Shown here: positions 52,038-58,503 of the stretch, in pieces | Layout: each line of letters begins with the position of its first letter | Position numbering within the stretch: the first letter of the stretch is position 1 | Assembly (NCBI GenBank): GCA_009869945.1 | Contig: WIXG01000154.1 | Span: 62,001 to 126,000, forward strand | DNA from: Mesaphorura yosii | Lineage: Eukaryota; Arthropoda; Collembola; Poduromorpha; Tullbergiidae | Length of the DNA stretch: 64,000 nt | Direction: 5' to 3' | Notes under the pieces: generated by a model | The model's input: the letters and a program-made list of their open reading frames with translations, nothing else | Told to the model about the DNA's origin: nothing | Databases searched by the model: none | Program-made: the position numbers and the translations under genes

Positions 52038-52563
52038 GATTCAAGAAGCTTTTAATTGTCCATGTAAAGGCACAATTACGCTTTAATGACAAAGGCGTGT
52101 GCAAGTCTTAATTAGCTACTTGCTTAATTGGGTTCAGTTCAGACCGCACCCTCTCCTGGAACATCAGCTTACGTAGGCGTCACTCGTAAATGGCCCAATC
52201 AACTGATCACGAGCCCTGGCGTGCTAGACGGTAATAATGCTCTGCTCGATCTGTAAACTTTGGACATCATGGAACTCACTCGCAAGTTGGCAAAGTCAGG
52301 CAGCAGCAGTTAATGAAAATAGGGTGCTGAATGCTTATTTATTGGAGAAGGCACTATTTTGAGCAACCTTTGCATTTTAAGAGCCACTTAACTGGGAACG
52401 TGCCAGCTTAATCTGCATTGGCAATTCTCTGCTCTTAATTACGATGAGTAATTAGCTGCTTAATTGTCTTACTTGTAGTGGCTTGTGTGTCTGATCTAAT
52501 GAATACCAACAGTTTCTGAATTCTGGCCGTCAGTAGCACGTTCAGCTTCAGTCAGCCTACAGA
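52038..52563. other. Divergent upstream region
   Basis: Probably holds the promoter of the glutaminase-like gene. No TATA box or coding sequence recognised; GCACGTTCAGCTTCAGTCAGCC just before the ATG may include an initiator (TCAGT). Confidence 0.45.
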
Positions 52564-55261
52564 ATGGCGACCCATTTCAAGGAATCCGATGCCAAGGCTC
52601 CGACAAAGTCCCCCAGCGCACTGCGAAAGAATTTTTTCACATCATCCTTTAGTAATCTGGTCGAGAAGCGCCTCAGTCTCAAGAAGAAGAAATCCAATCC
52701 GACCATGGCGGCTTCGCTCCCGGCTTCCAATCACCAGGAATCGGCCCCGAGTAGCTTGGATCACGACGGGCACAGTCATGACGAAGCGTACCGAGCCAAG
52801 ATCATCGCCGAGTACGAAATAGAAAGATCAAAGGGCTTAGTGGATTCGACAAGGAAAAACACGACAGAAAGTGAGCAGCATTCGACAACAACAAGTAACG
52901 AGAGTCTAAACGCTGAACTCGGAGTCGGCGCGAGCGAGGGCGTCGCCGTTACAGCGCCGATCGATATCAAAATGGTCAAAATCCAGGAACCGTCGTTAGC
53001 GGGGCCTACGATCGAGCTCATTTCCGCGTCTCCGACTCCATCATCAGGAAGCGGGTCGATAGCGCAAAAGAAGAACAGATCAGCATCGATGCAGTGGGTC
53101 GCTATGCTGACTGAGGACGGGGTTCAGGTGAATGCGGGGGAGTACGGAGACGACGAGGCGGAGGGCGACGACCTTTCTCAGAGCATGCAGAGCCTGGAAA
53201 AGCGCAAAAACTGGTTCAACAAGGTCGGCGAGAATGAGCCAGAAGAAACTAACAGCCAGGACGAGTCGGCGATCAGCGCACTGTACAAGAAACTGCGCAA
53301 GAATTCGACCTCGCCTTCGTTAAGGGACAGAAACACGCCAGAGCCTGAGCAGGCATCGTCTCCGGCTCGATACGTGGACAATCTCATCTTCGACATGTTT
53401 ATGATCAGCGAGGATGCAGAAGAAGTCGTGCTTATCGGGACCTTTCTCGCCGCGCTCGAGCGCACTGGCCTCGGGCGTGGCGACCCACGCCTCGTCGAGC
53501 TATTCGAGAACCTGCGCCGAATCCGTAGGCAAATGGAGCTGAATGGCAAGCCGACCAGTTCGATCGAGACGCTGAAGCTGGACCGAAACGCGTTCAAGGC
53601 TGCCATCACGGACAACATCGTCCTCATCTCGAAGGCATTCCGCCAGCAATTTGTAATCCCGGAATTCCAGAGCTTCTGCGGCTACATTGAGGACATGTAC
53701 AACAAATGCAAGGATTTGAAGGGCGGGAAAGTTGCGAATTCTGTTCCTCAGCTGGCGAACGTGAACCCAAACTTCTGGGGCGTGTCCGTCTGCACGGTGG
53801 ATGGGCAGCGATTCTCAATCGGAGACACGAAGAACCCGTTTACCATTCAGTGCTGCAGGTAGGCTCACTTTTAACTTAAATATTAATTGGTAAGCTAATT
53901 AATTCACGATTCAAATCTTGTTCACTTCGCAGTAAGCCATTAGCATACGCAATTGCACTGAATGAACTTGGCGAGGAGCTCGTGCACCAGTACGTTGGTC
54001 AGGAACCTTCTGGGCGCACATTTAACGAGCTGGTGCTCGATTACAATAGTAAGCGCACACTCAATTAACTAACTACGCAGCTAGACAACCTTTAACTTAA
54101 TTACTGCGCATTTACTTAGAGAAACCACACAATCCAATGGTGAACGCTGGTGCAATTATTGTGTGCTCACTCCTCAAGCAATTTGTGAAGCCAGAAATGA
54201 GTCTGGCTGAAAAATTCGACTACACTTACCAATACTTCAAGGTAGGTGGATAATGAATGTACACATTGGATACGAATTAGCAATTTTCTACAGAAACTGG
54301 CTGGAGGAGAGTACATTGGCTTTAACAACGCCGTCTTCCTCTCCGGGCGGGAGGCAGCTGACCGGGACTACGCCCTGGGATTCTACATGCGGGAGAACAA
54401 ATGTTTTCCGGAGGGCACCAATCTCGAGGAGTGCATGGACTATTACTTCCAGATGTGCAGCATGGAGTCAAACTGCGAGTCAATGTCCATCATGGCAGCA
54501 ACACTCGCCAACGGCGGCATCTGCCCCATTAGCGGAGAGAAGATTCTGAACCCAGACTCGGTTCGGGACGTGTTGGCGTTGATGCACTCGTGCGGAATGG
54601 TCGACTACTCAGGACAGTTTGCGTTCAAGGTCGGACTGCCCTGCAAGTCGGGGCTGAGCGGGGCCATCATGCTCACTGTCCCCAACGTGCTTGGCATGGC
54701 GGTCTGGAGCCCTCCGCTGGACAATCTGGGCAATTCCGTCCGTGGAGTCGCCCTGTGCCAGGAACTGGTTCAGGTGTTCAATTTCCACAAGTACGACAAC
54801 TTGAAGCACGCCTCGGACAAGGTCGACCCACGCAAGCATCGCTATGAGACGAAGGGCATGAACATCGTCAACTTGCTCTTCTCCGCGGCGTCCGGTGACG
54901 TGACTTCCATGCGTCGCCATCACTTGTCCGGACTCTGCATGAATGCAGCGGATTACGACGGCCGCACTGCGCTGCACTTGGCTGCTGCAGAGGGGCATCT
55001 TGAGTGTGTGGATTATCTGTTGCGGCAGTGTCACGTGAAGCATGATCCCGTGGATCGGTAAGCCTTGAGCAATCTTCCATCGTCCGATTCTCCATCGAAT
55101 GATTGCACTGACTCACAATTTCCTTCCTAATTAGATGGGGACATCACCCAATTTACGACGCGGAGAAGTTTGGACACTTTCATGTGGCAGAGTTCTTGCG
55201 CAAATGGGAGGCAGATCTAGAAAGTGGGAAGACGGGAGGCAGCATGGAAGTCGAACCGTAG
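52564..55261 (+). CDS. Glutaminase-family protein with a degenerate active site
   Basis: Exons 52564-53858, 53933-54048, 54120-54241, 54294-55057 and 55135-55261 join in frame to 807 residues. The glutaminase fold is well kept: [101 protein letters not shown] and [20 protein letters not shown], then ankyrin repeats ([35 protein letters not shown]). Against human GLS the active site is changed: Tyr249 is Ser393, the nucleophile Ser286 is Cys430, Glu381 is Gly529, Asn388 is Asp536, Tyr466 is Val614 and Val484 is Leu632. Lys289 (Lys433), Asn335 (Asn479) and Tyr414 (Tyr562) remain. The N-terminus of about 300 residues is Lys/Ser/Thr-rich and is not a typical mitochondrial leader. Normal glutaminase makes glutamate and ammonia; here hydrolysis is doubtful and a scaffold or regulatory role is inferred. 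Confidence 0.9.
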
Positions 55262-56106: not shown

Positions 56107-57042
56107 TTAACCAGTCATCATCTCCATGAATTCTGTGGGCAGAAAACAAAAGATTCTCTTTATCAAATCAAATGCACAAAAACTAAAACACGAAAAAAAA
56201 CCGACAGCGCAAATGAAAGAGCAATTAAAAAATTGGTCCAGTGCCAAGATTCTTTTGTTGATAATGAGAGACAGGCATGCGTGAAGTCGCAAGTCGGCAA
56301 GTCACCTGCCTGTCTTTCACGATCATTAGCCAGCAATTAGAGGAGTTGAAATAAAAAGTGTCGTCAAAATTCTGTTTGCATACCGTCAAAGTCGACTGTG
56401 CCCGAGCCGTCCTCATCCACCTCTTCAATGATGCCGTCCAGCTCCGCTTCGGAGAGAGTGTCATCAATCTCGTGCATGATTTGCTTCAGTGTTTTGGTTG
56501 TAATGTAGCCTTGGCCTGATCATTAATCATACGCGACAGCAATTAGTCAGTCAGTCAGCCTGTCGTAGTGACATTTCACACTTTTCTCTTCTCACTTACC
56601 GTCTTTGTCGTACAGCCTGAACGCTTCCTTCAGCTCGCGTGCCACGTCCGCGTCGTCCTCCTCAATGATGAACTTGGCCGCGAGCGTGCAGAATTCGGTA
56701 AATTCAATCTCACCAGAGCCGTCAGCGTCGACTTCGGCGATCGTCTCGCGCAGGGTCTCGCTGGTGAAGGCCGTTCCCATCATGTGCAGGATGGAGCCGA
56801 CCATTTCCGGGGTGATGTAACCCTTTCCCTGCGAAAACGTGTCGAACGCCTTCTGCAAGACTGAAAACCAGCAAAGCAAGAGTATGAGCATGAGGTAGTT
56901 TACAATTTGTAACATACAAATCGTCATATCACTTACTGGCAATCTGAGCCTTGTCCAAATCCGACTGCAACAGACAATAGACAACAATTTATCAAAAATA
57001 TCGAAAAAATTGACGCGAGCGTAAAAAAAAATTGCTTACCAT
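56107..57042 (-). CDS. TnC: Troponin C
   Basis: Five coding exons, 57042-57040 (only the ATG), 56964-56937, 56860-56600, 56515-56384 and 56132-56107, join in frame to 149 residues, the arthropod troponin C length. Four EF hands: hand 1 ([15 protein letters not shown]) lacks calcium ligands; hand 2 is canonical ([12 protein letters not shown]); hand 3 ([12 protein letters not shown]) lacks the final Glu; hand 4 is canonical ([12 protein letters not shown]). Calcium at sites II and IV is the usual arthropod pattern. The C-terminus is EFMEMMTG. The protein is the calcium sensor of the troponin complex on thin filaments and starts contraction when site II fills. The ATG-only coding exon followed by an intron is the classic gene structure for this family. 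The second exon is only 28 bases. Confidence 0.95.
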
Positions 57043-58503
57043 TTTCTGGCCGAATTCTTTTTGGGTGCTTGTACGCTGAAACCCGAGACGAGACGAGAAT
57101 AAGATGCAAAACTCGAGTGAAGACGCGGATCTCTGAGTCGTGTTTCGATGGAATGAGACAGAAAATCGGATTTTTCTCTTCCCCGACTAAGACCAGCACC
57201 AACCAAGATTACACGTATTAAATTACGGTCTTGTGCGGAAACGAAACAAGTTTAGAGAATCTATTTATAGGAGGCGTTTACATAAATACGGAGGATGAGC
57301 TTTTGCTTTTGCTTGGTTCTTGGAAAGAAAAATTCGCTTCATCTTCGCCTTCATCTTTATCGTATCCGAATTGATGTAGTAATGATGATCTTGTATGTAC
57401 ATTTGTGCCATTTAGGAGGAGTAGGCCGAATAGGCAGCATGCTTTCTTATTTTTACCCATGACAACGAAGATTCAAGATTTTTTTGACTCAACTGCTTTT
57501 TGCTGGTTGAATTCTGCTGGCTGCTGTGGCTGTGCTGAGTTATGATCGCACGCAACTGTGCACATTTGTCGACAAAAAGCTATTAAAACTGTAAAACTGA
57601 AATAACGCAGATTGAATCTCTGCCAAAATTAAAATCAGCATCGTCTTTCTAGATTTCTGTTGTAGAAATGGACATGTAAACAGATGAAATGAGATTTCAC
57701 AGTGGGAGATTGCCATTCTGGTGCACCCGTATTCACAACATTCGCTGGCATTTTTATTCATTCATGCTATACATATGCTACAGTTTGCGAATACTTCGAC
57801 GGTTTCGAGGTCACGACTGGAAAATGGTACATTTCAAGCGAATATGAACGCAGCTGAAAGTAAATTCACGACCATCTTCAATAAATCGGTATCCCTTATA
57901 TTTGAGTTGGGTCTGGTCACGGGATTGAAACTTTGGACTTCGAGCTCCATACCGAGCGATGCATGAGAAAAATAATCGAGATTTGACGATTCGATGAACG
58001 ATGACTCGGTTTTTTAGCGTATATGAATATGAACTTTAACAGCCTGTTGCCAAAAACGGCAAAAAGGTGTGGATGAGCCGAACCTATGTCAGATTAATTG
58101 AATTTTAATGTTATTGACAGTTACTGACACTGAGACTGTCACACATTTCGAGCCTTCACGGAGAGAACTTGCACGCCTTACCGTCACCGCCCTCTGAGTC
58201 TAACCACTCTCCGGAAAAACCTTACACGCGCGCAAGCACACTGCCCACGCGATAAGATTTAGCTAATGTCCCTTTCGTTGACAAGAACAACAGATTGTTC
58301 CAACTGATATGAAATCATGTCTTCCTAGAACAGGCGTTTCGTGCGTAGTTTGCTTCTCACGTAATTACATGCTAGTAGCCCTCCACATGTTGCATTGACT
58401 GCAAAATGTAAATAACCCGGAATATTCATATTAATGTAGCACCATGCACCATGAGAAGGAGCGTTGCAGAATGGAGATTGCAGTTGACCGAAATCTATGA
58501 GCG
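57043..58503. other. Divergent upstream region
   Basis: About 1.4 kb between troponin C and the SLC17 transporter, partly 5' UTR and promoter. An 81-codon plus frame at 57721-57966 and other small frames show no family resemblance. Confidence 0.45.

Follow-up and report, generated by a model that had tools for sequence, protein, structure and literature searches.

Human glutaminase is the closest described system for the gene analysed here. Its catalytic triad is Ser286-Lys289-Tyr466 (PMC13218152; we use human GLS numbering, and the chain numbering of 8gwr_B agrees with the published one), and proton transfer is carried out by Tyr414 and Tyr466 (PMC10770349). Tyr249 belongs to the lid and is inserted above the substrate, with which both it and an active-site glutamic acid interact (PMC10912226). 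In the same study, filaments lengthen upon substrate binding and lid closure and disassemble once glutamine is spent, and their growth is tied to the way in which the lid tyrosine and an active-site glutamate engage the substrate (PMC10912226). In the Y466W mutant of GAC, glutamine is bound, hydrolysis is absent and filaments persist (PMC10912226), and K320A+Y466W human glutaminase is catalytically defective and filament-competent (PMC13142944). The review that lists this double mutant names F355A, F373A, N375A, F378A, Q379A and Q416A as changes that disrupt filaments (PMC13142944).

Non-catalytic paralogues of metabolic enzymes are described from eudicots. TSB-like is a non-catalytic paralogue in which two key residues are missing and which acts as an allosteric activator of a metabolic enzyme (PMC12727527), and PDX1.2 is described as a non-catalytic pseudoenzyme that regulates vitamin B6 biosynthesis (PMC6829848). 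TSB-like is unrelated to glutaminase, and its regulatory effect has been demonstrated experimentally, whereas a regulatory role for the protein described below is inferred; PDX1.2 belongs to a different enzyme family, in plants. Among the matches listed for open-licence PubMed Central, none described a pseudoenzyme of the glutaminase family, an inactive paralogue or a duplicated arthropod glutaminase.

Gene structure and family membership

The stretch of DNA analysed, hereafter the window, covers 64,000 nucleotides of a 173.8-kb Mesaphorura yosii contig, in a genome assembly of 93.0 Mb in 1127 contigs. At least 66 chitin_bind_4 matches in this assembly are in keeping with an arthropod, and a search for globins gave three matches, which did not narrow the animal's placement further. 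It contains a five-exon gene (Table 1), here called the focal gene, whose spliced product is an open glutaminase-family protein of 807 residues followed by a stop; the intact frame given in a preliminary description of the locus was thus recovered. The four introns are all GT..AG and measure 52-77 bases.

Table 1. Positions of features in the window
Feature	Position	Strand	Description
Focal gene	52564-55261	+	Five exons
Start context	52556-52566		CCTACAG, similar to a splice acceptor, one base upstream of the ATG in AATGGCG
Exon 1	52564-53858	+	N-terminal extension of about 270 aa, then the EF-hand-like GLS N-domain and the first part of the catalytic domain
Shared N-terminal motif	53077-53124		R-S-[AS]-S-x-x-W-[VIL]-x-[FM]-L-[TI]-E-x-G-V
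Codon 393, TCT (Ser)	53740-53742	+	Human Tyr249, lid 'lock' residue (PMC10912226)
Codon 430, TGC (Cys)	53851-53853	+	Human catalytic Ser286
Exon 2	53933-54048	+	Lys433 (K289) kept; activation loop begins
Human phosphate-site positions	53933-54389		Exons 2-4
Exon 3	54120-54241	+	Asn479 (N335) kept
Exon 4	54294-55057	+	Remainder of catalytic domain, most ankyrin repeats
Codon 529, GGG (Gly)	54345-54347	+	Human Glu381
Codon 536, GAC (Asp)	54366-54368	+	Human Asn388
Codon 614, GTC (Val)	54600-54602	+	Human catalytic Tyr466
Codon 632, CTG (Leu)	54654-54656	+	Human Val484
Exon 5	55135-55261	+	End of ankyrin region, tail, stop
Neighbouring gene	about 56380-57045	-	EF-hands, troponin C-like by eye, several exons

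The Pfam glutaminase profile PF04960 matched the focal protein over its full length (positions 1-286 of 286) with 357 bits against a cut-off of 27. Pfam domains are arranged in the order PF17959 (EF-hand_14), PF04960 and PF12796 ankyrin, with the EF-hand-like domain at residues 272-366, the glutaminase domain at 388-678 and the ankyrin repeats thereafter. KGA and GLS2 likewise have an EF-hand-like N-domain and an ankyrin C-terminus. Judged by homology profile and by this architecture, the focal protein is an animal-type (GLS/KGA-like) glutaminase. Its best solved relatives were human KGA (8gwr_B, E = 1.4e-189, aligned over residues 276-793) and GLS2; the long N-terminal extension falls outside the alignment with both. 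Catalytic-domain identity was 62.0% to GLS (KGA/GAC; 194 of 313 aligned positions) and 59.4% to GLS2 (186 of 313). Because identity to the solved KGA structure is this high, the glutaminase fold is predicted to be conserved. The difference from GLS and GLS2 lies in the pocket, where six of nine residues are replaced, among them two members of the Ser-Lys-Tyr triad, the serine and the tyrosine.

The Lys/Ser-rich N-terminus without a clear mitochondrial leader had been put forward as distinguishing this protein from the normal enzyme. We dropped it as a pseudoenzyme-specific feature, since an N-terminus of the same kind is found in both canonical paralogues of the same genome and is thus common to all three. 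The three extensions, which otherwise diverge, have one motif in common (Table 1), which could possibly be a phospho-regulated docking motif. The acceptor-like AG just before the ATG means that an upstream exon, and hence another N-terminus, is possible, so the compartment cannot be inferred from the N-terminus.

Glutaminase paralogues in the same genome

A PF04960 search of the 93 Mb assembly, in which nine of nine candidates were scored, gave ten matches that correspond to three genes: the focal gene and two others named here after their contigs, C389 (L009) and C711 (L010). Searching the proteins of this genome with a fragment of the focal protein returned the same three glutaminase genes. 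Both paralogues are open, at 771 and 819 residues, when spliced by eye on conserved junctions. They carry all nine pocket residues, so that the focal gene is the only one of the three to lack any. The preliminary description had suggested that a pseudoenzyme could regulate an active paralogue, and the genome contains two canonical candidates for that partner. Catalytic-domain identity to the focal protein was 88.6% for C389 (281/317) and 75.4% for C711 (239/317).

Intron positions, with junctions placed by eye, were partly shared: three are common to the focal gene and C389 only, and the last is common to the focal gene and C711 only. Two introns occur in C389 alone, the one within the N-terminal part and the other following ...SLCQ, and C389 has no intron at the last position shared by the other two genes. 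Another two are private to C711, located in the N-domain and behind ...FYFQ. In maximum-likelihood trees, the focal gene grouped with C389 at 81% bootstrap, at 74% without the pocket columns and at 49% in a bacteria-rooted catalytic-domain tree. With these values, a sister relation between the two is likely but not firm. The possibility that they are alleles or collapsed copies was ruled out by saturation of the synonymous sites that separate them.

The human phosphate-site residues are absent from all three paralogues: R317 (Thr/Met/Met), K320 (Glu) and K398 (Asn), with E325 replaced by Tyr/Tyr/His. R387 and Y394 are retained in all three. From these sequences, mammal-like phosphate activation of this animal's glutaminases appears unlikely.

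Loss of pocket residues

All six replacements noted in the preliminary description (Y249S, S286C, E381G, N388D, Y466V and V484L) were present in the spliced protein when aligned to human KGA. The three residues said to be kept, Lys289, Asn335 and Tyr414, are indeed retained as Lys433, Asn479 and Tyr562. The active-site glutamic acid that contacts the substrate is presumably Glu381, and Asn388 and Val484 are counted as pocket residues following the earlier description. For the triad of an active serine glutaminase, the lysine is in place, with Cys430 and Val614 at the positions of the serine and the tyrosine. Since two of three triad residues are lost, ordinary glutamine hydrolysis by the focal protein is very unlikely. 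In the lid, 5 of 13 residues at 245-257 differ from those of C389, and all of these changes occurred on the focal lineage.

We rejected an alignment error or incorrect splicing as the source of the pocket changes, as three of the four introns lie at C389 intron sites and the fourth at a C711 site. Mis-splicing is also argued against by the position of the changed codons, five of six of which are well within exons; codon 430 ends 5 bases before the exon 1 donor.

Changes at otherwise invariant positions were concentrated in the pocket. Across the catalytic domain, 163 columns are invariant in C389, C711, KGA and GLS2, and the focal protein departs at eight of them (H230Y, Y249S, I250V, S286C, E381G, N388D, Y466V and V484L). 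These comprise six of nine pocket residues and two of 154 other columns (hypergeometric P = 1e-7, a value that is partly post hoc, as the list of nine residues came with the original observation). The same count with C389, C711, KGA or GLS2 as the focal sequence gave 8, 17, 9 and 16 changes, respectively, among 171-180 columns, none of them in the pocket. Restricting the pocket to active-site residues named in papers (Y249, S286, K289, N335, Y414 and Y466) left three of six changed (P = 0.0015). A leave-one-out comparison of 37 near-universal columns, which uses no pocket list, gave six departures for the focal protein, the highest of all against 91 other sequences; the bacterial maximum was four (2 of 87 sequences), GLS2 had two, and C389, C711 and KGA had none. 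By these comparisons, the losses are specific to the pocket and extend to two of the three catalytic-triad residues.

Bacterial glutaminases served as a control set. The 87 sequences comprised 80 loci (the best 80 of at least 597 confirmed in a contig search with a bacterial alignment), E. coli glsA and six plasmid genes, the last from 207 plasmid records with a match, of which 30 were among the matches listed and eight were retrieved. Two loci were left out of the counts, one with a stop in the stretch as cut (L019) and one partial match (L020). A contig scan of prokaryote genome collections with the arthropod alignment gave 59 pattern matches, with no relative among them. S286, K289, N335, N388, Y414 and Y466 were identical in all 87 sequences, and variation was found at E381 (two sequences), Y249 (three) and V484 (five); the two retrieval patterns took in the surroundings of N335 and V484, which biases those two columns, and the other pocket columns lie outside the patterns. 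All nine residues were present in 78 of the 87, one was missing in eight and two were missing in one. Cys at position 286 was found in none of the 87 bacterial homologues and none of the four other animal sequences examined. Two glutaminases from bacterial MAGs, L035 and L055, have Ala at E381, and L035 also has His at Y249, which makes them natural pocket variants outside animals.

Selection on the focal gene

The codon model gave omega values far below 1 on every branch of the 515-codon core: 0.020 for the focal gene, 0.034 for C389 and 0.003 for C711. The model used three sequences with a separate branch each, and dS was saturated (2.8 on the focal branch, about 48 on C711), so that these values are approximate and support no statement finer than 'far below 1'. 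On the focal branch, omega = 1 was rejected for the core (2dlnL = 21.6, P = 3e-6), for the core without pocket codons (P = 1e-6) and for the catalytic domain alone (P = 7e-5). It was also rejected for the ankyrin part (P = 0.01), but dS there was unbounded (above 37) on every branch. Equal omega on the focal and C389 branches was not rejected (P = 0.67). Nothing was drawn from the fit of the N-terminal extension, which was unstable (omega 7.3 and dS 0.03 on C389).

Direct comparison of the focal gene with C389 indicates an old duplication, since only 66 of 190 four-fold sites are identical and 238 codons of the core differ synonymously only, compared with 76 that differ by replacement. Replacements were more frequent in the focal protein than in C389 in the catalytic domain (21 vs 4, P = 0.0009; 15 vs 4 outside the pocket, P = 0.02) and the N-terminal extension (30 vs 15, P = 0.04), with 8 vs 2 in the ankyrin part (P = 0.11) and 5 vs 4 in the N-domain. 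This faster replacement suggests that constraint is somewhat relaxed. Taken with the codon model, these counts indicate that the focal protein is under strong purifying selection, though less tightly constrained than C389.

With essential residues missing and purifying selection in place, the gene is, as far as codon comparison can tell, a long-kept pseudoenzyme and not a decaying gene: omega stays near 0.02 despite saturated synonymous sites, and omega = 1 is rejected. The preliminary description had proposed that selection keeps the fold while ordinary catalysis has been abandoned. The pocket losses, the conservation of the surrounding protein and an omega far below 1 on this lineage bear this out, with abandonment of ordinary catalysis very probable.

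Assembly surfaces and possible roles

Of the six residues named for the filament interface of the human enzyme, the focal protein keeps five (F355, F373, N375, F378 and Q416); at Q379 it has Leu, as do both active paralogues. Against C389, N388D is the one difference in the dimer-dimer helix (386-398) and M317T the one difference in the activation loop (308-334). Conservation of the assembly segments did not significantly exceed that of the remaining catalytic domain (4 of 78 vs 24 of 226 positions differing from C389, P = 0.18). Since the interface residues match those of the active paralogues and the helix and loop are nearly as in C389, mixed assembly of the focal protein with an active paralogue is plausible.

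We suggest, with about even confidence, that the focal gene is an old GLS/KGA-like duplicate that lost hydrolysis and was kept as a non-catalytic partner of an active glutaminase, likelier as a damper than as an activator. The protein would fold into the glutaminase dimer or tetramer, and its pocket would neither hold glutamine in place nor hydrolyse it. The retained assembly surfaces would admit the protein to mixed tetramers or filaments with an active paralogue, of which C389 is the closest. With the lid tyrosine and active-site glutamate gone, such a subunit may uncouple assembly from glutamine, because the residues that hold substrate during lid closure and filament growth are the ones lost. 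It would more likely dampen or cap filaments of the active enzyme than activate them, although the direction is a guess. More speculatively, and in our view possible but somewhat doubtful, the focal protein could be a natural regulatory subunit with the substrate lock removed, the ratio of dead to live subunits setting filament length and glutamate output. A bolder form would have the dead pocket, with its vicinal Cys430-Cys431, sense redox state or another ligand and relay this to the filament.

Several other explanations could account for a dismantled pocket in a conserved protein. The pseudoenzyme may work independently of the active glutaminases, not assembling with them but serving as a scaffold, a binding protein or a sensor of some ligand. 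Retention of the N-domain and ankyrin repeats fits such a role, as does purifying selection on the ankyrin part, within the limits of dS noted for that test. A co-assembling subunit predicts the same conservation, however, and the interface residues named in papers are the same as in the active paralogues; we consider independence unlikely, though a serious candidate. Activation of a paralogue, for instance by nucleating constitutive filaments, is very improbable in our estimation. It draws on the filament-competent K320A+Y466W enzyme (PMC13142944), as Glu and Val occupy positions 320 and 466 in the focal protein, but Glu at 320 is also found in both active paralogues, and loss of both Tyr249 and Glu381 is at odds with filament growth tied to the lid tyrosine and active-site glutamate (PMC10912226).

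Other readings retain catalysis or deny function. Cys430 and Lys433 form a Cys-X-X-Lys pair, and a neofunctionalised enzyme could use the cysteine, a possible nucleophile, to attack another substrate in a pocket of altered shape; the retained equivalents of Lys289, Asn335 and Tyr414 and the very low omega would suit such an enzyme. We regard this as improbable, given that Tyr466 is Val, that Glu381, Asn388 and Tyr249 are lost together, and that Cys at 286 has no counterpart among the bacterial and animal sequences examined. Residual or normal glutaminase activity with a cysteine nucleophile could appeal to the retained fold and Lys289. It is remote when the replacements cover two of three triad residues and others in the pocket, and when Y466W alone blocks hydrolysis in human GAC (PMC10912226). 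A replacement rate above that of C389 is what a decaying pseudogene might show, but decay, like an assembly artefact, is scarcely credible for a gene with an intact five-exon frame, omega far below 1, saturated synonymous sites and its own 173.8-kb contig.

Implications for the glutaminase family

If the focal protein is a non-catalytic partner of an active glutaminase, glutaminases would join the metabolic enzymes that have regulatory dead paralogues. The protein raises the question of what a subunit contributes without catalysis. Activity of human glutaminase is coupled to substrate-driven filament assembly (PMC10912226), and a long-conserved natural variant that has lost its pocket and retains assembly residues would allow this coupling to be tested.
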